In this document: piece after piece, positions 1 through 59,697 of the stretch
Position numbering within the stretch: position 1 is the first letter of the stretch
Layout: each line of letters opens with the position of its first letter
Notes under the pieces: model-generated
Seen by the model: only the letters and a program-made list of their open reading frames with translations
The model's database searches: none
What the model was told of the DNA's origin: nothing
Made by a program: the position numbers and the translations under genes
Assembly: GCA_033065855.1 (NCBI GenBank)
Contig: JAVXUO010001736.1
Span: forward strand, 12,501 to 76,500
DNA length: 64,000 nt
Direction: 5' to 3'
Source of the DNA: Escallonia rubra
Taxonomy: Eukaryota > Streptophyta > Magnoliopsida > Escalloniales > Escalloniaceae

Positions 1-663
1 TTCACGTGAGGTGTAGCCTGACAAGGAGCCCGTCTAGTTGGTTCTCGGATCACTTCTTCGTCACTCTCATCCTGAAGAGCGAAACTTCGAGCGTGAAACA
101 CTTGCCGAGCCTTGCGAGATGATTGAAAGCAAGAAGTTTGGACAGATGTGTGAAACACTTTTACTTTCATGTCCATCATCCGCTACATTATGTAGCGGAT
201 GGGTATTTAAGAGGAGAGAGAGAGAGAGAGAGTCAGAAATTGATGGGAGAGAGAGAGTGTGTCAGAACATTAAAGTAGTCTGTCTACTCGTCCGCTATAT
301 AATATAGCGGATGGGTATTTAAAAGAGTGTGTCAGAACATTAAAGTAGTGTCTGTCTACTCGTCCGCAATATAATGTAACGAATGGAACATGAGAGTATT
401 ATTGTAAAAAAATCGTCCGCTACATTATGTAACAGACGAACTTAAAAAAAACGTAAAAAAAATATTTGGACAGTCCGCGATACAATGTAGAGGACGGGCG
501 GAGGGGTAAAAATGTAAAAAAAACCCGTCCGCCATACAGTATGGCGGACGACTGACAGTATTCGAAAAAGGCGCGATCTGGGCCGTCCATCTTTCAGGAT
601 GGACGGCCAGATCGCGTTTGCAAGATCTCCTATTTTGCTAACGCTCTCAACGGATCAGCTCCC
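1..663. mobile_element. Foldback element FB0, right arm (left part outside window)
   Basis: The segment ends at ...CGGATCAGCTCCC followed by a TA repeat, the same terminus as three elements at 48.7-52.0 kb. Inside the arm lie six palindromes of the GTCCGC...GCGGAC type, near 178-200, 290-313, 361-385, 414-438, 473-497 and 526-550, the third and fourth degenerate. A longer hairpin at about 570-617 pairs CGATCTGGGCCGTCCATC with its mirror. The GA-rich stretch at 210-262 matches the linker of the 50.6-kb element. Positions 1-170 look like loop DNA, perhaps captured sequence, but I do not recognise it. Foldback (hairpin) transposons of plants are a known class; assignment here rests on shared ends. 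Confidence 0.7.
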
Positions 664-769
664 ATATATATATAGGTGGCAATTCGATATAGGACACCCA
701 TAACTAAATTGGTGATAATTTAATAGCTCCTCTAGACGCTAATAAATGTCGACAACAACGGATCAGCTC

Positions 770-808
<39 letters not shown>

Positions 809-887
809 TGGCAATTCGATATAGGACACCCATAACTAAATTGGTGATAATTTAATAGCTCCTCTAGACGCTAATAAATGTCGACAA
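648..887. repeat. Two tandem units of 108 and 132 bp, starting with the FB terminus
   Basis: Unit 1 (648-755) and unit 2 (756-887) both read CAACGGATCAGCTCCC, then a TA run, then the same 80-bp AT-rich sequence ending in GTCGACAA. They differ mainly in TA length (about 11 against 34 bases). The unit includes the last 16 bases of the foldback element together with its flank, so the duplication happened after the element inserted or during its insertion. Confidence 0.9.
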
Positions 888-1088
888 TTTAGTTGAAACA
901 AAAAGGGGACACAGGAAATAAAACAGCAGTCTTGCAAACGTTAACTCACTATGGGAAAATGGATAATATGCTTTTCTTTCTCTCTTTTCTTTTTCTGTTT
1001 CAAAACGAACACATGAATTACTATGATACAACAAATGTACAAACAATGCTGGAAGGGAGGGAAACAAGTATAAAGTGTGATGACTAAA

Positions 1089-39098: not shown

Positions 39099-42000
39099 TT
39101 CTCCCCCTTAATGTGATGTCGTTGGACTCCAAATTCTTCTCTGAATTTCTGAAACTTCACTTTCAGAAGTGCCTTGGTGAAGATGTCAGCCATTTGATCT
39201 TCGGACTTGCAAAACTCAAGTTGGATCACTCCTTCATCAATTGCTTCCCGAATGAAATGATGTTTGAGGGCAATATGTCTTGTCCTGCTGTGATAGACAG
39301 GATTCTTAGCCATTGCTATGGCTGATTTGTTGTCACAGTAGAGCTCAGTGGCCCTTTCTTGCTTCTCTCCCACATCATCTAAAATTCTTCTCAACCCAAT
39401 AGCTTGCGAAGTAGCCAACGTTGCTGAAACATACTCAGCTTCAGCTTTGGATTAAGCAACAGTTTGTGTTTCTTGGAGGTCCAAGAAAATATGCCGAAAC
39501 CAAGAGAGAAACAATAGCCCGAGGTGCTCTTCATACCATCTGCACAACCACCCCAATCACTATCACAAAAACCAAACAACCTCAACTCAGAATTTTTGGA
39601 ATACTTGATCCCGTAATCAAATGTGCCTTTAATGTACTTTAGCAACCTCTTTGCTCCTCCAAGGTGGAAATGACTCAGACTTTGCATAAATCGAGAGAGT
39701 AAGCTTGCTGCAAACATAAGGTCCGGTCTTTTTGCCGTGAGGAACATCAAATTTCCAACCAAACTCCAATAAAGAGTTGCATCTACTTTTCTTCCTCCAT
39801 CTTCTTTCTTTAACTTCTCACTCAAAATGAGCGGTATTGCCACAGGATTGCAAGCATGCATACCAACTTCTTTAGAACACTTAAAGCATACTTCTTTTGA
39901 GATATGAACACACCATGTTCATCTTGAACAATTTCCATGCCAAGGAAATGATGTAACAACCCCAAGTCACTCATTTCGTACCTTCACATCATTTCCTCTT
40001 TGAAGGCTCGTATCATTTTCTCATTGTTACCTGTGAGCAACATATCATCAACATAAAGAGCAACAATGAGTATATTAGTTGCACCTTCCTTTTTGACGTA
40101 CAAAGTTGGCTCACTTTTGCTCTCTTTGAAAGCCTTGCTCATAGAAATAGCCATCAATTTCGCTATACCAAGTCCTGAGAGCTTATTTTAGTCCGTACAG
40201 TGTCTTTCATAATCTATACACCTTGGCTTCTTCCCCTTCAATAAGAAATCCTTGAGGTTGCTCAACATACACCTCTTCTTTCAATTCTCCATTCAAGAAG
40301 GCAGATTTGACGTCTAGTTAGATGTAAAAACCAAACTTTATGTGCTGCCACATAAATGAGGGCTCTCACTGTGTCCAAGCATGTTACGGGAGCAAATGTT
40401 TCTTCATGATCAATACCAGGTTGTTGTGTGTAGCTTTTTGCAACCAATCTTGCTTTATTCCTTTGCACTAAGCCATCCGAGTTGTATTTTATCTTGTATA
40501 CCCATTTCACTCCAATTACTTCCTTATGTGATGGCCTATCAACTAACTCCCATGTATTATTTTTCTGAATTACATCGATCTCGTATTTCATAGCCTTTCT
40601 CCAAACTTTCTCCGTCATAGTTTTATCAAAGCTTTGTGGTTCAGCAATACAGAAATTATAACTTTGATATATTACACTCAAATTCTTGGTCTTTCTTGGA
40701 GTTATGCTTGGCGAAGATGAGGCTGAACTTTGAGACGTTGACATGCTTGACGAAGACAATGGTGAACCAGCCCCAAAGGGGAGTTGAGGTGATCCAAAAT
40801 CATTGCCTTCTTCTTCCATTTGCATTTGTTGTGGCTGAAATGATTCAATAGGCAGATTTTCCTTTTCTATTTTGCTATTTTCCCAATTCTATTTAGCATT
40901 TTCATCAAATAATACATCTCGACTGATAATGATTTTATTGGACTTCAAACTGTACAGTTGATAACCTTTTGATCTTGAGCTATAGCTAACAAAAATGCAC
41001 TTCTTGCTTGTCTCATCCAGCTTATACCGCTTTACTTTCGGTATTTTCGCATAACACACGCAACCGAAGACCTTAAAATACCTCATGGACGGTTTTCTAC
41101 CTCCCCAAGCTTCAAAAGGAGTTCGGCTCCACACGGCCTTTGTCGGACACCTATTAATCAAGTACACAGCTGTATAAAAAGCTTCTGCCCAAAAACGTTT
41201 TGGTAGTCTCTTCTCATGTAGCATGGAATTCGCCATCTCCATCACTGTTTGGTTTTTCCTTTTCGATACTCCATTTTGTTGAGAAGTATAGCCAGCGGTT
41301 ACTTGCCTTTCCAAGCTTTCATCTTCAAAAAATTTGTTGAATTCACTTGAGTTGTATTCTTTTCCTCTATCACTCCTCAATGTCTTTATAAAGTAGTCAC
41401 TTTGCTTTTCAGCATAACTCCTAAATTTCTTAAAAATGGCAAATACTTCCTATTTTTGTCTCATGAAATATACCCATGCCATGCGAGTATAATTATCAAT
41501 GAAAAGAATAAAGTACCTATTTTGTGCATTTGAATGTGTTCGCATACGCCTGCAAACATCCGTATGCACTAACTCAAGCTTCCCTTTGGCTCTCCACGCT
41601 ACTTCCTTCATAAATGGGCGGCGATGATGCTTCCCAAGTGCACAACCTTCACACACGCCATGTTTGTCTTCAATAGTAGGCAGCCCTTGCACCAAATTTT
41701 TCTGAAAAAGTTGCTTAAGACCTTGAAAATTTAGATGCCCGAATCTCTCGTGCCATAACCCTGAATCTTCTACGATATGTGCCTTCATTGCAACATCCTT
41801 GACATATTCCAAGGTGAATGGGAAACTTCTATTACTCTCCATTCTTATTTTCTTCACAAGCTGCCTTGGTTGCCCATTGTCATATATCATGCATCCATTG
41901 CCTTCGAAATCGAATTTATAACCATGCTCTAATAGTTGTCCGACACTAAGCAAATTCTGATCTAGGTCAGGAACAAGTAGAACATCTCGAATAAACCTAT

Positions 42001-43110
42001 CTCCTTCTTTGGTTTGAACGCCAATTGTTCATTTTCCTTTAGCCTCAACCAATGCTCCATTTCCCAGCTTTACTTGGGATTTGAAAGTGCTATCCATGTC
42101 TAGGAAAAGACTTTCATTTCCTGTCACGTGATTGCTACAACCACTATCAAGAAACCACACATCTCTCTTATGTTCCATGACACTTTGGCAAGCATAAAAC
42201 AGATTTCCTTCATCTTCCTTTTCTTCCTTAACACTTGCATGCTGAAATTTTTTTGATTTACAGTTCCTGTGCACATGTCCAAATCTCTTACATTTGTGTC
42301 ATTGTGGCTTCCCTTTAAACCAAAAATATTTCTCTACATGGCTGCCCCTTTTACAAATGTTACACTTTTGTGATGCACCATCATCATTCTGCCTTCCCTC
42401 AAAGCTTCTTCTTGTTTTATCTTTTCCCCTAGAATCTTTACCTTTCCCTCCAAATGTATGTTTTCTATTTTCTTCAAGATTCTGGAACTTCCTTTCATCA
42501 TTTTTTGATGAACCAATAGTGAGTTGAGATTGAAAAGCACTCTCAATAGATTTTTCAGAGTGTCTTGCCAATCTTTGCTCACAGGACTTTAAAGAAGCCA
42601 TCAATTCTTGAATTTCTCAGGTAAACTGATTAGAACCTTTTCAACAATTCTTCTGCTGCTAATCTCTTCAGCATAAGACTTCATTTGATTGATTAGATCT
42701 ATAAACTTAGTGAAAAATTTAGCTAAGGTTTCATTCTCTTTCATCTTCATATTTTCAAAATCTCTTCTAAGGGTTTGAAGATTGATAGCTCTTAACTTGT
42801 CATCACCATGGTACTCAACTTTGAGAAGATCTCATGCTTCTTTTGCCTTTGTTGCTCTGATTATTCTGGGAAAGATGGATTTGGTGACTCCTCTTTGGAT
42901 TATAGAAAGAGCATTTGCATCCTTTTGTCGAACCTCCTCCAATTTCTTCTTTTGATTTTCGGTCAAATTCTCCATCGATTCGGGTTCGGTAAACCCATTT
43001 TCAACCAAATCCCACAGCCCCATAGATCTGAAGATTGTTTTCATCTTCACAAACAATAAAATCGCAGTCTTCTTCATCAAACTCTGGAACATAGGCTGGT
43101 TGTGACCCAC
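39086..43110 (-). pseudogene. Copia gag-pol, interrupted
   Basis: Read on the minus strand: gag (43110-42832, then a zinc knuckle CNICKRGSHVEKYFWFKG at about 42300-42350, with the last cysteine lost), protease (FLDSGCSNHV, 42160), gag-pre-integrase (LWHERFGHLNFQGL with CEGCALGKHHRRPF), integrase core (MRSDRGKEYNS, QNGVSKRKN), reverse transcriptase (KWVYKIKYNSDGLVQRNKAR; later KRPDLMFAASLLSRF) and RNase H (ATELYCDNKSAIAMAKNP, HIALKHHFIRE). In-frame stops lie near 42030 (GGA to TGA), 41450 and 40887, a frameshift near 40320, and the YVDD-containing middle of RT (39862-40261) is out of frame. It makes no complete polyprotein. Confidence 0.93.
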
Positions 43111-48530: not shown

Positions 48531-48640
48531 GTAGCACGGACACGGACACGGTGTTCGACACTGACACCGGACACGGTGTCCGACACCGACACCGGACACG
48601 GTGTCCGACACCGACACCGGACACCGCAGGACATCGCTAT
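48531..48640. repeat. Short tandem repeats of the GGACACGGTGTCCGACACC type
   Basis: After GTAGCACGGACACGG, a roughly 27-bp unit (GACACCGGACACGGTGTCCG) repeats about three times; each unit is itself a palindrome. The same words occur inverted at 55880-56040, so these may be the two ends of one large element (see findings). Confidence 0.85.
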
Positions 48641-48675: not shown

Positions 48676-50350
48676 GGGAGCTGATCCGTTGAGAGCGCTA
48701 GCAAAATAGGAGAAGTTGCAAGCGCGATCTGACCGTCCATCTTGAAAGATGGAAGGCCCAGATCGCGCCTTTTTTGAAAACTGTCAGTCGTCCGCCATAC
48801 TGTATGGCGGACGGGGTTTTTTACCATTTTGCCCCTCCGCGCCTGTCCGCTACACTGTGTGGCGGACGACATTAAAGTCCTGATGGGAGACAGCAAAAAG
48901 ACGTCCGCTATACAGTGTAGCGGACGTCCCGTCAGTCCTTTTTTTAAGTCCGTCCGCTACATAATGTAGCGGACGGTTTGTTGACAGGAATTTTTGTTCT
49001 GTTGTTTGCTTTCCTTTTGGTGTTGTTTGCTTTCCTTGTTCGTATCATTGCAATTCAAAAAGAACTCCAGTCCCACTTCGGCCCAAACTCCGTGACTTCA
49101 CTGTGGTTCCTTCTTTCTCACTATGTCGCTCCAAACAAGGAAAGATCGTCCAACAATTAATCGAAGAATCCATTTCTAGCTCGAGAGATTCAGAATGTAA
49201 AAGTCACATACCAATCTTTAGAACTGGAACCGAAAGAAACAATTGAAAGCATAACAAGAACCCAACATATTTTGATCTAAAATACAAACAACTATATTTG
49301 ATAAATTCTGCGTTTGATAAATACAAACAACTATATTTCCACAATTCCAAAACTATTCCAGGGTTCTTCGTTGACGTTGCAATTTTTGGCTAAAGCTTCG
49401 TTGACGTTGCAATTTTTGGGTAGGAGCTTCGGCCTGTCAAGGACGTTCGGCCTAAACAATGAGTTTGGCTAGGAGCTTCGTTGACGTTGCAATTTTTGGG
49501 CCTTCAGATCTGGATCAATGGTTGCGATTGAAGCTACAGATAAGGATTTTCAGATCTGGGCCTGAGGCCGGAGAATTACCTGGTGCCGGTGGATTCAGCC
49601 AAGAAGTTCTGCTTCTCATTTGCGCCGACGTCGGCATCGTTGTCGATCATTGGTAACTTGTAGCAGTAACGGACACGCGGCACCCACGACATCGTCGATT
49701 CATGTTCAGACTAACTTCCAGTAGCTCGGCGGCGTCAAGTTCCTTAGCCTGATTCTCCGGCCGGGTGCTTCAACAGCAACTCCGTCTCCTTCTCATCACA
49801 CTGCCGAGCACGGCCAATCGGGGGTGATGACGACATACCAGATCTGTCACACAGATCTGGGCGACGACGGGTTAGAGGGTGCGGGCGGCGACGGGATGGA
49901 GGCGACGATAGGGTGGGGGGGGGGGGTGACGGCGGGGTGGGGGATGTTGGAAGGACATAGAGAGATTTTTAGGCTCTGAATAAGGATTTTCACAAGGATC
50001 TTGAAAGCAACAGGGAACGACAAGATAGAAAGAAAAGGAAAAAGGCAGAGAGAGAGAGTGGGGGGCGGATACGGAATCATAGTGGTCCGCGTCCGCTACA
50101 TAATGTAGCGGACAACTCAACAGATTTTGCTGTCACGAGTCAGGACAGGACTTGAATGTCGTCCGCGATACAGTGTAGCGGAGGGGGCGGAAAGGCAAAA
50201 AGGTAAAAAAAATCCCGTCCGCGACACTGTGTCGTGGACGACTGACATTTTTCAAAAAAGGCGCGATCTGGGCCATCCATCTTTCAAGATGGACGGCCAG
50301 ATTGCGCTAGCAAAATAGGCTATTTTGCTAGCGCTCTCAACGGATCAGCT

Positions 50351-50353
<3 letters not shown>
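48676..50353. mobile_element. Foldback element FB1 (1678 bp)
   Basis: Inverted ends GGGAGCTGATCCGTTGAGAG are identical in the first 34 bases on both sides. The left arm reaches about 48976 and the right arm about 50090. Palindromes of the GTCCGC...GCGGAC type lie in the left arm near 48789, 48845, 48902 and 48953, and in the right arm near 50090, 50160 and 50217. The larger CCGTCCATC hairpin is in both arms. The 1.1-kb loop has a three-copy 24-bp repeat (CTTCGTTGACGTTGCAATTT and following) at 49366-49499, a G-run at 49915-49927 and GC-rich, first-exon-like DNA at 49600-49980, probably captured but unrecognised. Both flanks are TA repeats. Confidence 0.8.
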
Positions 50354-50415
<62 letters not shown>

Positions 50416-50419
<4 letters not shown>

Positions 50420-50551
50420 CGTTATCGATTGCTAGCGCTATCACGTTTCTAGCGCTGTTTTGTCGTCCGCTATACAATGTAGCGGACGATAATTCACCGT
50501 CCGCTATATTATATAGCGGACGGTGCTAGTGCTAGCAACGGATCAGCTCCC
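50416..50551. mobile_element. Minimal foldback element FB2 (136 bp)
   Basis: Begins GGGTCGTTATCGATTGCTAG and ends, read inward, GGGAGCTGATCCGTTGCTAG. Between them are only two 23-bp palindromes, at 50464-50488 and 50500-50523, with different variable letters (TATAC and TATAT). TA repeats flank both sides. It may be the smallest form of the family. Confidence 0.7.
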
Positions 50552-50569
50552 ATATATATATATATATAT

Positions 50570-50978
50570 GGGAGCTGATCTGTTGAGAGCGCTAGCAAAA
50601 TAGGCTATTTTGCTAGCGCGATCTGGCCGTCCATCCTGAAAGATGGATGGCCCAGATCGCGCCTTTTTCGAATACTGTCAGTCGTCCGCCATACTGTATA
50701 GCGGACGGCATTTTTTACCTTTTTGCCACTCCGTACCGTCCGCTAAACTGTATCCCGGACGATATTGAAGTCCTGACACGGGACAGCAAAAAGGTATCCG
50801 CTATACAGTGTCGCGGATCTGGCCGTAATACCCAGCCCATCCGCTACATTATGTAGCGAACTACTTTTCTGACATTTTTTTCTCTCTCTCCCTTTTCTAT
50901 CATTAATGCTCTGACTTTTTTTTCTCTCTCTGTCCTTTCTCTCATCTGCTACATTATGTAGCGGACTAGTTTTCTTAC

Positions 50979-51034
<56 letters not shown>

Positions 51035-51991
51035 TTAATGCGCTCTGGCTTTTTTTTTCTCTCTATCTCTCTCCTTTCACAGGTCATAAACCCATAGACA
51101 CCATCTCCCTGCACCCTTCAACCTTCTTCCCCGACCTCAAACCATGCAAAACCCTAAAAGACTTGTCCCAGGTCCACGCTAAATTCATCAAAATCGGCCG
51201 TATACGCGATTTGGAGGTGGTCGGAGGAGAGCAATTTGGAGGTGGTCGAAAGCACTAGATGAAGAAGATCCTTTATTACATGAGACAGCCAGTGGACTTC
51301 TCTTTTACTGCTCTCTTTCTTTGATTCTTGGAGTATTCTTGACAGAGAAATCCTAGAATTGACAACACATTTGCATTTTTAGCCTTCTTTCGCTTTCAGT
51401 TTTTGAAAAATGGCTTAGTACCCATCCGCTACATAATGTAGCGGATGATGGATACCCATTTCTTTCTCTCATAGAATGAATCAGGCCTTGTGTCTCTCTT
51501 TTTGTCTTAAGTCATGTAATGAACCAGTGGCCCTGTATCTCGAGTAAGAGCTTACAGAGCGCATTAATACGAGAGAGAGAGAATGTAAGAAAACTAGTCC
51601 GCTACATTATGTAGCGGATGAGAGAAAGGACAGAGAGAGAAAAAAAAAGTCAGAGCATTAATGATAGAAAAGGGAGAGAGAAAAAAAAATGTCAGAAAAG
51701 TAGTCCGCTACATAATGTAGCGGATGGGCTGGGTATTACGGCCAGATCCGCGACACTGTATAGCGGATACCTTTTTGCTGTCCCGTGTCAGGACTTCAAT
51801 ATCGTCCGGGATACAGTTTAGCGGACGGTACGGAGGGGCAAAAAGGTAAAAAAGGATGTCCGCTATACAGTATGGCGGACGACTGACAGTATTCGAAAAA
51901 GGCGCGATCTGGGCCATCCATCTTTCAGGATGGACGGCCAGATCGCGCTAGCAAAATAGCCTATTTTGCTAGCGCTATCAACGAATCAGCT

Positions 51992-51994
<3 letters not shown>
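50570..51994. mobile_element. Foldback element FB3 (1425 bp) with near-identical arms
   Basis: The left arm (50570-51047) and right arm (51555-51994) are inverted copies differing at only a few positions outside TC-run length. Each arm carries the CTAGCAAAATAG hairpin, the CCGTCCATC hairpin, and five 23-bp palindromes; one more lies in the loop at 51423-51447. Polypyrimidine linkers end each arm. The open frames seen in both arms are mirror images of the same repeat, not genes. The loop (51048-51554) carries a PPR-gene fragment. Flanks are TA repeats on both sides. High arm similarity suggests recent origin or ongoing arm correction. Confidence 0.85.
51076..51258 (+). pseudogene. Captured pentatricopeptide-repeat (PPR) gene fragment
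   Basis: An open stretch of 60 codons without its own obvious start reads KPCKTLKDLSQVHAKFIKIG, the classic first-repeat phrase of plant E/DYW-class PPR proteins (C-K-T-L-x-D-L-x-Q-x-H-A-x-x-I-K-x-G). PPR proteins edit or stabilise organelle RNA. After RIRDLEVV the reading continues as GGEQFGGGRKH and stops, so only the N-terminal repeat is present. It lies in the FB3 loop and is not long enough to function; I infer that it was copied from a host gene. Confidence 0.75.
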
Positions 51995-52034
<40 letters not shown>

Positions 52035-56040: not shown

Positions 56041-56854
56041 AGAGATAATAATTTTATTATTTCATCCTTAACTCGTTAAATTTCCTGCGCTTTTACCATA
56101 TTTGTTGTATGTACTAGCGTTTGCTTTAATTCCGTTTTCCATTTAAGATGCTCCTGTTTTGCATGCCTTTTTTAGATGCTCTGAACCTTCCAAAATTCTC
56201 CCCCAGCTCCCCATTCCCTTATTTCCTGGCGCCTTTCATTTGATGATTATAGAAAAACTTTCAATATTCAAATTTTTAGTAAAGATATCTCGTACATGTA
56301 ATGCAGTGACTTGAGTTTTAATAACTTAACGGGTGGAATCCCTTCGTCGCTTAGCCAACTAAGGCTAGATTACATGTAAGTTAGTTCTTTATTTATATTC
56401 CCTTGGCATTTCGTATAAGTCAAATCTTGTTTTTGCTCAACAAGCTGAAGTTCATCAGCCTTTACGTTTACACCTCAGGCTTCTTGCAAATAATATGCTA
56501 AGCGAATCAATCCATCATTGGGTCCAAAATGCAATCTCCAAAAAAGCGTGAGTGTTGTTTATTAAGTTTCCATTTACGTACTTTCTCTGCGGGTTCTTTG
56601 AGTCAAAAAGCAACAAAGATTAGCTATTGCATATTGAGGTTGGAGAATAAGTTGTTGGATGTTTGTCTTAGTTAAGGGCAGTCTCCCTTATGTTCATTAT
56701 GTACCTTTTAGTTGATTGTTTCATGTATCCATTTTTTCCCTTACCGGAACAGCCACCTCCAAGCATACATCTTAACTGTAACCTGAAGTGATAAGTAATA
56801 ACTGCATAAATGCATTTCTCATGTGCTAGCTTTATCTTTAGTTTGAGCCAACAC

Positions 56855-57619
56855 GGTATAAACATTGTGAATGCAATGAAGTTGGTAAGTATAACAAAGC
56901 AACGATTGCAGGACTTTAGGGATCAAGGGTTGGAAGACTTGCTGGAAGAGGTCTCACAATTTTGTGTAAAACACGATATTGACGTATTGGACATGAGTGC
57001 GAGGTTTGTAGCCCCGGGGAGGCAAAGACGTAATGCTGAAGAAGGTACAAATTTTTACCATTATCGTGTTGATATTTTTTTAACGGTTGTTGATTTGCAA
57101 ATCAGTGAGTTGAATAATCGTTTCAGTGAGGTAACCATGGGGTTGCTTATATGTATGGCATGTCTCGATCCAAGTGATGGTTTTTCTGCTTTTAATAAGC
57201 AGGAGTTGATACGCCTTGCACAGTTTTATCCATATGACTTTTCGCCAATAGAGCTTAGGGTACTTCAAAGTCAGCTCGAGACTTATATTATGGATGTGCG
57301 CTCCTGTGAAGAACTTTATGAAGTCAGGGGAATTGGTGAACTTGTTATAAAGTTAGTTGAATTGAAAAAGGATGTGATATATCATTTGCTGTTCTTGCTT
57401 TTGAGATTGGTCTTACTTTTATCTGTTGCAACTGCTACTGTAGAAAGAGCTTTCTCTGCAATGAAGATAATAAAGACTCGACTTCGGAATCGCATGGGAG
57501 ACGAATGGATGAATGATAGCTTGGTTTGTTACATCGAGAAAAATGTCTTCAAAACTTTTACAAATGAGGCTATTATCAAACGCTACCAATTTTCGGTGCC
57601 TCATCGAGTAGTTATTTAG
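56855..57619 (+). pseudogene. hAT transposase (TTF-type zinc-finger class), C-terminal part
   Basis: About 250 codons are open: NIVNAMKLVSITKQRLQDFR at the start, YRVDIFLTVVDLQISELNNR in the middle, LLLSVATATVERAFSAMKII and RNRMGDEWMNDSLVCYIEKN near the end. This is the C-terminal half of the plant TTF-type hAT transposase, ending in the hAT dimerisation domain with the conserved A-x-V-E-R-x-F-S-A-M-x-I. The DNA-binding N-terminal half and most of the catalytic core are absent, so the fragment is inactive though uninterrupted. The first 20 codons of the open frame (56810-56854) belong to flanking DNA. Confidence 0.88.
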
Positions 57620-57854
57620 TGTTTTCGTTTGTAAACACTGAAATATGTATTTTGTATTCTCTTCTTTTGTGTTTTAAAGAGTCCTTAGTGGCTCTCATGA
57701 AACTTAATAAGACCTTTTAGATGCTTTTTAGTATGTTTTGTGTATTATCGAAAAGTGCACTTTGTTTTTGTGTGCTATTTTACTTATAAAAATATTTATC
57801 TTCTTCGATATATTTTTAGCCCCCCTCTGGGATGAAATCCTGGTTCCGCCACTG
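56855..57854 (+). mobile_element. 5'-truncated hAT element (hAT-C), 3' end intact
   Basis: The right terminus is TTCCGCCACTG (57844-57854), the inverse of CAGTGGCGGAA. The last 110 bp match the left end of the non-autonomous hAT at 23808. The left end is missing: transposase sequence begins abruptly next to an LRR intron. The target duplication would start GTAGGAGA at 57855, with no partner on the left. Confidence 0.85.
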
Positions 57855-59697
57855 GTAGGAGAGGTAGGTCCTCGCAGCGAGTGAAAACCTCATTTCATCA
57901 AAGAATCCTTTGATCTTCGACATTTGCCCAAAAACAAGTGTTGGCTGGCCAGCTGAAGGCACACGAGGTACGGCTGGGGGCACAACTTCCGTTGAGGCTT
58001 CGGTGGTGGGGGGTTCAACATGGTCGGTAACGACCATGAGAACCTGATGCTCTATGTTGTTGCCATGAGGGAGGTATGAGTGTCCACGCACATCGTTGTT
58101 CTTTCGTAGCTTAAGGTCACCCGCAGCGACCTGCCTTGCAAAAATGTCCCTCAATCCATTGCAATCTTTTAAGTAGCGCCCAACAGCTCGGTGATAAGGG
58201 CAATAGTTGGGCCTTGCTTTGTCTGCTTCCATGACATTCGTCTTTGTCGGTGGCAAGTGGAAGTTGTCGTCGTGCTCTATCCACTCTGTCAACAGCTCAT
58301 TCATTGTCTTGAGGTCACATGGGTATTCAGGGGCAAGCTCCTGTTGTCTTCTCTTGTCAGGGCATCGGTCCCCCTCTTGGGACTGACGCTTGCGGCCATT
58401 GTAGTTGTTGTTGTTGTTGGTCCGAACCTCGGACGTGTCTGCCGTGGTAAGAAGGGCGATATGAGGGTGAGGCTTCCACAGCTTAATTGGATCAACCGAC
58501 TCGTAAGTGCGGCGGGCTGTCTCCTTGAGGTGACCCCATGACCTCAATTGCACGTTCTCAATATGCACCATATATACATCACTCATGTTCTTGATGCATA
58601 TAGGAACCAATGTTTCATCCTTGCTAAAGTCTATGCACTCGAGGCATTTGAGATGGAAGCGGTGCATATACTTGTTCAAATCCTCCCCGAGATTTTGGTG
58701 TATGCTGGTAATATCAACAATAGTGACTCTTTCAGCTTGATAGTGAAACTTGTCCAAGAAGAATCGTACCATATCATTCCATGAGCGGACAGTCCCATCA
58801 GGGATCTGGTGGTACCAGGTGTAGGCAAGGTCTGTGAGGAACTTGTGAAATTCCTTCAACTTCAAACTATCTCCCAGACCATATTGCTCTAACGAGCCTG
58901 CAAATCTGGTTAAATGCTCACGGGCATTGCCCTTATGTCCGTTGAAGATTACGAAGGTCGGCTGCTTATATTTGAGTGGGTAGGGTGTGATAGAGATGTC
59001 GATGGCATATGGTGCGGGGCCTGTCAGCCGGGTTGAGGTGTCGGGTTCAGAGTTCTTTGACAGGTGGTGAATGAGAGCTCTCAAGTCTAACTTGGTGACA
59101 TAATGAAGGGTAGGTTCTTCGTCGTCAGCCTGGGTATGGTAGCTGGCTGGGGTGTCGCGAGCCCCCAGATAGGATAACTTGTTGGATGGGACGAGGGAGG
59201 GTTGATATCTGACGGGAGCTGACAGCTGTATAGGGGCATGAGTAGCTGGGCGAGACACGTCCACCACATGGTCGATGGTTTGGTGTTGGTCGGTTGGGTA
59301 AGTAAAGGTTGGGTTCCATCTCGATGTAGAAGGTTGGCACATGGCGAGATGATGTAGCGGTAGGGAAGAGCTGCTGCAACACTATTCCAAGATTCGTCTA
59401 CAGTCTGTGGGGTGGCACCAAACAAGGAGCTACATCGGCTATGGGTGGTGAAGATGTCGTGAGTCCTACCACCAAGGGTCTGGATGCACGAGGCGGCGGT
59501 GGTCGTGACACTAGGACCTGGGTGGCGTCAAGGGCCTGCCCAGGTCCTGAAGGCTGGATCGGTGAAGCGGCTTGCTGAGATACAAATGTATGTATAGATC
59601 TTTGCATCTCTATGATGGCGGCCATGAGAGTGGTCTGAGAGTCTTGCAGGTTGGTGATGGTCAGAGTAAGTTGCTTAATGGCCCAACTGACAACCAC
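57816..59697 (-). pseudogene. Ty3/Gypsy gag polyprotein, frameshifted and truncated
   Basis: The main frame (59342-57816, 508 codons) holds the retrotransposon gag core: YKQPTFVIFNGHKGNAREHL, then FHKFLTDLAYTWYHQIPDGT and SWNDMVRFFLDKFH (retrotrans_gag domain). An altered zinc-knuckle follows, YCPYHRAVGRYLKDC. The N-terminal part is in another frame (59697-59398), so one frameshift separates them near 59370. The 3' end runs into the hAT at 57854; its last 13 codons (QWRNQDFIPEGG and stop) are hAT terminal repeat, so protease and the rest of pol are missing. Confidence 0.88.

Follow-up and report, generated by a model that had tools for sequence, protein, structure and literature searches.

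Short covarying palindromes arrayed in the ends of a putative Mutator-like transposon family of Escallonia rubra

Mutator-like elements (MULEs) make target duplications of 8-11 bp, often 9 bp, and the class includes the FARE or Foldback MULEs of Arabidopsis, which have long palindromic ends. FARE/Foldback MULEs are mentioned in the paper on MuTAnT of Medicago truncatula (PMC4486113); its available part describes MuTAnT as a MULE with foldback ends that targets (TA)n microsatellites, occurring mostly as short non-autonomous copies together with one large element that has a mudrA/Jittery-like transposase. The SaTar elements of guayule, rice, sorghum and citrus are, in the accessible part of their account (PMC5907723), non-autonomous MULEs that lie in microsatellites and form non-nested linear arrays joined by microsatellite. 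Here we describe elements E1 to E4 of Escallonia rubra, found in a stretch of 64,000 nucleotides (contig JAVXUO010001736.1, C2128:12501-76500 in our numbering, from a genome of 566 Mb) that we call the window, and which resemble MuTAnT and SaTar in these respects, E2-E3-E4 being an array of the SaTar kind. Judged from sequence, E1-E4 belong to a large, mobile family of cut-and-paste MULEs of the MuTAnT/SaTar sort, because of their ends, their microsatellite target and the proteins of their large relatives. Their arms are built from arrays of 23-bp palindromes, and paired changes in the two palindrome halves exceed what shared ancestry gives, unevenly across the ranks of the array.

E2 (48676-50353) and E4 (50570-51994) are foldback elements with long terminal inverted repeats (TIRs). 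The arms of E2 (48676-48822 and 50207-50353, 147 bp) are 88% complementary, and those of E4 (50570-50923 and 51641-51994, 354 bp) are 97% complementary. E3 (50416-50551) is a minimal element of 136 bp, barely more than two ends and two palindromes. The three stand in a row, E2-(TA)31-E3-(TA)9-E4, with the TA repeats of the gaps at 50354-50415 and 50552-50569 and a further (TA)n tract beyond E4 at 51995-52031. E1 is a single right arm on the minus strand (178-663); it holds six palindromes, and its end meets a (TA)n tract. The limits of E2, E3 and E4 had been placed correctly in the original prediction, which also listed an element at 1-663; the arm is there, but not a complete element, as only one arm is present and the 3 kb upstream of the window showed neither a second end nor a palindrome. 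E2-E4 are apparently non-autonomous, and E1 is only partly visible.

Six of the seven element ends (663, 48676, 50353, 50551, 50570 and 51994) agree with GGGAGCTGATCCGTTG to within one mismatch; E3 departs from it at its left end, GGGTCGTTATCGATTG, and the left end of E2 carries four extra bases. The window has seven TA tracts of at least 10 nt, five of which touch an element end (one of these a lone end); of the other two, the first is separated from an end by 4 bases and the second has no element end. Target duplications are unreadable within TA repeats, although the parity of the flanks is odd for E3 (a/a) and E4 (t/t), as for a duplication of 9 bp. At the E1 tip, window 648-890, the tip, its TA repeat and ~80 bp of flank are duplicated in tandem with an offset of 108 bp at the end and of 132 bp at the flank, a discrepancy that falls within the TA tract; this duplication accounts for the lone element end at 756-771. 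Immediately left of E2 there is a degenerate GGACACGGTGTCCGACACC tandem repeat (48537-48630, delimited by eye).

Twenty genome stretches were fetched for comparison. Loci L005-L017 do not form a random sample, as they were picked around listed palindrome sites on contigs C1-C12; among the other seven, L018-L024, one stretch has a single palindrome and six have none. Directly outside 22 of the 26 ends recognised are ten bases of TA/TG repeat. The ends at L014:4247 and L016:4463 adjoin TG instead of TA repeats, and SaTar elements, too, are reported in the available text with flanking microsatellites other than TA (PMC5907723). E4-size copies with both arms exist elsewhere in the genome; in three that were fetched, the arms are 96-98% alike to the left arm of E4 (92-95% in the longest alignments), with TA repeats on both sides in two copies and on one side in the third.

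Three large elements were recognised in the fetched stretches by facing GGGAGCTGATCC-like ends beside simple repeats, at C1:10519-22558 (12.0 kb), C9:209717-222657 (12.9 kb) and C9:511925-521747 (9.8 kb). Pfam models identify the MULE transposase domain PF10551 (6.4e-25, 1.6e-13) and a SWIM domain in open reading frame (ORF) pieces of two of them, the transposase of the third being recognised by DNA similarity; the one element whose N-terminal piece was scanned also has a FAR1 DNA-binding domain (7e-7). All three carry a plant mobile domain (PMD) gene (1.7e-49 to 1.8e-44), and these FAR1 and PMD genes point to a plant host. In 3/3 the two genes are convergent, with a series of palindromes at ~75-bp spacing in between, and six ORF spans of these elements contain no palindrome at up to 2 mismatches. 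The large elements are tied to E1-E4 by their ends and by arm similarity, and their transposase activity is putative. Foldback elements of the Drosophila FB/Galileo type combine tandem direct-repeat ends with an FB-type transposase; the protein pieces recovered here belong to the FAR1-MULE type. The original prediction was thus right that these are foldback-type transposable elements; its suggestion of a family apart from known ones is not supported, given the end sequences, the insertion into microsatellites and what the large relatives encode.

PMD ORFs within large MULEs lie at L006:2778-3446, L011:7021-7662 and L013:5077-5712; PMD proteins act in transposon silencing, and transposon-borne PMDs have been proposed as a counter-silencing tool, according to the available part of PMC8616336. 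A second, different MULE transposase, also matching Transposase_mut, lies beside a FAR1-type element at L010:880-2010. Long palindrome series at ~77-bp spacing occur at G000 C26:19755-20629, C103:31343-32515, C448:1769-2406 and C85:85388-85956, and a transposon's intergenic palindrome array may seed minisatellites. In the interior of E4 (51100-51220) the peptide DLKPCKTLKDLSQVHAKFIKIG resembles what we take to be a PPR-gene fragment, in the manner of a Pack-MULE; its ORF has no Pfam match. Four interior ORFs of E2 and E4 gave nothing significant against Pfam (best QLQ, E 0.19, below the cut-off), nor did one of them against NCBIfam. Elsewhere in the window, 41450-42028, 56810-57619 and 57816-59381 hold fragments of retrotransposons (GAG-pre-integrase, gag) along with a hAT dimerisation domain.

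The 23-bp palindrome pattern, allowing up to 3 mismatches, has 28 matches in the window against 3.0 expected from shuffles, and exact matches number 10 against 0 in each of 100 shuffles. Twenty-six of the 28 make up arrays of 6, 7, 2 and 11 in four stretches, in agreement with the approximately 25 predicted; the other two, at 49607 (within the E2 interior) and 63110, look like chance. The E1 array, numbered from the tip inwards, is at 527-549 (rank 1), 473-495, 415-437, 362-384, 290-312 and 178-200 (rank 6). The left arm side of E2 has ranks 1-4 at 48790-48812, 48845-48867, 48903-48925 and 48952-48974, and the right has ranks 1-3 at 50217-50239, 50161-50183 and 50091-50113; between the two rank-1 palindromes of E2 there are two compensated pairs. 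E3 has its two at 50465-50487 and 50499-50521. In E4 the left ranks 1-5 are at 50684-50706, 50738-50760, 50796-50818, 50839-50861 and 50944-50966, and the right ranks 1-6 at 51858-51880, 51804-51826, 51746-51768, 51703-51725, 51597-51619 and 51424-51446, the centre of right rank 5 being flipped relative to left rank 5. The outer palindromes of the arms are spaced by ~55 bp.

Seven of the 26 palindromes are perfect. Their mean number of mismatches per 11 pairs is 1.46 within a palindrome versus 2.40 between palindromes, with 0/20,000 permutations as low. Genome-wide there are 19,337 exact matches to the pattern in 566 Mb and 0 to a backward control, and a scan of viral contigs for the palindrome and the end gave 0 matches.

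Two further palindrome types, beyond those originally predicted, lie nearer the ends, so that an arm carries a 31-bp palindrome near the tip, an imperfect one of ~47 bp, and then the 23-bp array. The 31-bp palindrome is perfect at the right of E2 (50304-50334, minus strand) and at both sides of E4 (50589-50619, plus strand, hairpin z -5.9; 51945-51975, minus strand), and imperfect at the left of E2 (48695-48725, plus strand) and in E1 (614-644, minus strand, with one compensated pair). Beside its perfect form there is a form with several differences in the right half, the left half being nearly constant. The larger palindrome is seen in the left arm of E4 at 50616-50662 (plus strand).

Covariation was evaluated at two scales. 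Within the window, the same site patterns were put at random columns in 20,000 draws, with the right arm of E4 removed as identical to the left in those columns. Compensated pairs number 5 against 0.57 expected (1/20,000), and 3 against 0.29 (24/20,000) when rank 3 is left out. For the wider comparison 23 ends were hand-picked, excluding L016 5118, window 771 (the lone end), both E3 ends and weak matches; four arms that were short or poorly alignable (L009_4597p, L015_4596p, L016_4463p, L019_1135m) were then dropped. The resulting 19 homologous arms underlie the tree null, the changes per column, the centre toggling, the core inversion and the robustness tests reported below. In the null model the tree comes from non-palindromic columns and each column evolves independently at its own rate. 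Cells in which both partners changed number 46 against 13.6 expected (0/600 simulations), and 16 against 2.3 in the rank-1 palindrome alone (0/600). The excess persists in all 18 variants of tree, kappa (1 to 6), rate and rows (0/300 simulations each). As an example, one homologous 7/17 pair is T-A in eight of the 19 arms, G-C in five, C-G in two and mismatched in four. The comparison with a mutation-only null that had been proposed for these palindromes, run here on a sample, therefore gives an excess over shared ancestry.

The motif was originally described as 11-nt arms around one A or T. The central A/T holds, but the arms are better described as a predicted single-strand fold with a 10-bp stem and a 3-nt loop; five folded stretches are strong DNA hairpins (z -3.5 to -8.0). 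Which positions covary follows this division genome-wide. Among 15,071 sites of the form NAYAYWRTRTN between fixed ends, the stem pair 9/15 is C-G in 5546, T-A in 4552, T.G in 2491 and C.A in 2482 (odds ratio 4.08), that is, 67% paired where independence gives 50%. The loop pair 11/13 is T-A in 4577, T.G in 3856, C.A in 3604 and C-G in 3034 (the last by subtraction; odds ratio 1.00), and its 50.5% pairing equals the independent value. The stem pair 7/17 is T-A in 9641, G-C in 450, G.A in 1338 and T.C in 1222, with an odds ratio of 2.65 calculated by hand. Such counts include copies and tandem arrays, so we use the contrast alone and disregard p-values. In a deduplicated sample of 101 distinct 23-mers from 175 sites, 9/15 is paired in 71% against 48% expected; loci L001-L004 were left out of this and of the centre-letter sample because they repeat L005. 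The claim that the mirror half usually changes too hence needs dividing: paired changes are in excess, and 'usually' is too strong for the genome as a whole.

Positions 2-6, 8 and 10 with their mirror positions, and the A/T centre, are fixed. In rank 1 the fixed positions underwent 0.73 changes per column (0.36 without the centre), as compared with 3.25 for the free positions and 2.61 for the spacer (56 columns), and in rank 2 the fixed positions underwent 0.87 against 2.38. The centre is A or T in 147/147 sampled sites and in 19,337/19,578 (98.8%) genome-wide, with G/C in 241. At the rank-1 centre parsimony gives six changes, all of them A/T exchanges. There are 97 other columns with at least three changes; four of these changed between complementary letters only, none of the four having more than three changes, and simulated columns like the rank-1 centre arose in 0/8000 in five settings and 1/8000 in a sixth (1/48,000). 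An exact inversion of the 3-nt core, TAG to CTA, separates L013 from the homologous L010 and L011. Core pairs that are reverse complements number three in rank 1, one in rank 2 and two in rank 3.

Selection on an RNA hairpin was considered and is disfavoured, the wobble pairs (36 versus 30 on the two strands) having no strandedness. Rfam gave 0 matches for the whole window at gathering scores.

Matching of stem letters, freedom of the loop and inversion of the centre suggest, as far as comparison of sequences goes, folding with sporadic copying of the motif from its own other half, while the fixed letters suggest a protein that reads it, for which a FAR1-domain transposase is the natural candidate. 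Our preferred reading, to which we give a probability of about 0.5, is of a MULE family with a FAR1-type transposase, in which the palindromes are end sites read by protein and the free stem letters are re-matched by hairpin-templated copying. The E1-E4 family would insert into (TA)n microsatellites, and its 23-bp palindromes would act as repeated end and regulatory sites. A protein that reads the fixed letters would account for their conservation, and the likeliest such reader would be a dimer of the element's own FAR1-domain transposase. The free letters at 7/17 and 9/15 would be re-matched because the motif folds into its 10-bp hairpin with a 3-nt loop and one half occasionally serves as template for the other by template switching, whereby the core is inverted; transposition or replication may supply the single strands. 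The repeated A/T toggling of the centre is the pattern expected from core inversion, and the 31-bp palindrome, with its perfect form and its form with right-half changes, fits templated re-matching. In yeast, template switching between short inverted repeats reportedly leads to arm homogenisation and spacer inversion (PMC8604942, in its available part), and FAR1/FHY3 proteins, derivatives of MULE transposases, dimerise (PMC13306707, likewise).

Several results weigh against this reading. The signal from total pairedness falls short of that from paired changes: in the window (the 31-bp palindrome and ranks 1-2) it is not above its null (7215/20,000), and for the 19 arms, with rates lowered to 0.7, 14/300 and 46/300 simulations attain it. 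Rank 2 is weak, with extra pair types in 198/600 simulations and both-changed cells in 28/600, and its left half barely changes while the right half is variable; rank 3 has no excess of pair types (407/600), and its fixed positions are hardly slower than the spacer (2.27 versus 2.61), in a region of poorer alignment. The ~47-bp palindrome is without a compensated pair among the four window arms, which speaks against a general effect. The 9/15 pair is mismatched in one third of genome sites. After deduplication the sample has 7/17 slightly above expectation (65% versus 59%), and 11/13, unlike in the genome count, is also above it (57% versus 46%); within the window's own palindromes, too, 11/13 is mostly paired. 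Among control triplets, 1/213 have three reverse-complement pairs and 7/213 have two or more. E4 and its three copies share nearly all mismatches of ranks 1-3, so re-matching must be slow, and one arm of copy L028 regained its rank-3 9/15 pair by a single-base change where half-copying predicts otherwise. The known FAR1 site, CACGCGC in the available part of PMC13306707, differs from the 23-bp motif of which FAR1 is our candidate binder.

A related view, which we hold tentatively and below the preferred one, sees in the ends a structural signal that renews itself and consists of short palindromes in their thousands. Symmetry would be restored and the loop inverted by hairpin-templated copying, which might accompany transposition or the repair that follows it; the transposase would read the folded or symmetric form, and a set of stem positions would be left to drift freely.

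Two other explanations, each improbable when taken singly, account for the data nearly as well as the preferred reading and could act alongside it. If a transposase or host protein recognises the folded stem of a cruciform or hairpin, changes that break it would be lost and those that compensate kept, with no need for a special mode of copying. Association in the stem pairs with none in the loop pair genome-wide is what such selection would leave, and the hairpin strengths, the single-base re-match in L028 and the paring down of E3 to two ends and two palindromes all agree with it; yet many mismatches are retained, young copies preserving nearly all of them, and neither the toggling of the centre nor the exact core inversion is needed for folding. 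Equally doubtful is exchange among palindromes, whose shared GTCCGC/GCGGAC ends would permit conversion or recombination, in either orientation given their self-complementarity, so that symmetric cassettes move from one position to another and mimic covariation and flips of the centre. The GACAC half found within right rank 1 of E2 is seen again in E4 at rank 3, palindrome units often stand in series at regular spacing, and inverted exchange would give centre flips. However, flanks and rank order remain aligned over the outer part of the arms, and exchange alone creates no new symmetric types and leaves the association of stem without loop unexplained.

Less probable still is a plain dimeric protein site, one of the two possibilities that the original prediction had named, in which two identical subunits reading the two halves keep the symmetry. 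The strictly kept mirror positions, the A/T centre and the dimers that FAR1/FHY3 proteins form (PMC13306707, available part) speak for it, but positions at which the base is free need not match, and yet 9/15 and 7/17 are associated; in this plain form it fails to explain why the stem is associated genome-wide and the loop is not, and the difference between CACGCGC and the motif counts against it as well. The absence of any maintenance, with old symmetric diversity and with methylated cytosines in the two halves decaying from C to T in parallel, is the least likely: the C/T transition type accounts for 66/93 mismatches across the 23 arms, without strand bias (36 versus 30), but both-changed cells exceed the independent-column tree nulls in every setting with kappa from 1 to 6, and the transversion swaps at the 7/17 pair given above are not deamination.

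Covariation is standard evidence for RNA structure; to our knowledge it has rarely been shown for DNA structure. The coupled change of the palindrome halves may mean that the strand pairs with itself and that copying or selection acts on the folded form. Should the self-renewing signal be real, a structure of DNA, and not of RNA, would have undergone compensatory evolution across a whole genome. Given more than 19,000 sites in one genome, whose positions divide into stem and loop and into fixed and free, counting can tell apart template switching, selection for a cruciform and binding by a dimer. The motif would also supply a candidate recognition motif for a plant MULE family, and it would tie (TA)n targeting to a particular design of the ends.

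Literature matches to the letters of the end and the palindrome were unrelated titles among the matches listed, and searching open-licence literature by topic found, among the papers listed, no description of palindrome arrays of this sort. BvMSat05 of sugar beet (PMC2820488, in its accessible part) has palindromic GTCCG motifs beside plant tandem repeats, but a search of the Escallonia genome for a 25-bp core of that motif gave 0 exact matches. The yeast inverted repeats homogenised by template switching share arm homogenisation and spacer inversion with the process proposed here, and differ, in the available text (PMC8604942), in being single genic sites and not an amplified transposon motif. 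MULEs with tandem TIRs are alike in having repeated end modules in elements that amplify well; there, however, entire TIRs are duplicated and not short palindromes, and 'palindrom' is absent from the part of the main text available (PMC3310237). In the SaTar paper, 'palindrom', 'hairpin' and 'foldback' are absent from the available main text, and its arrays mix unrelated families whereas E2-E3-E4 are of one family (PMC5907723). The TIR of MuTAnT follows the mask GGGGTTTGCTAGAACA, where ours follow the end sequence given above, and neither 23-bp palindrome arrays nor a PMD gene were found in the available part of its account (PMC4486113). MULEs as a class, targeting of TA repeats and foldback ends had all been described before; in the open-licence literature searched we found no MULE family in which arrays of a short palindrome, with fixed and covarying positions, make up the ends and the intergenic region.

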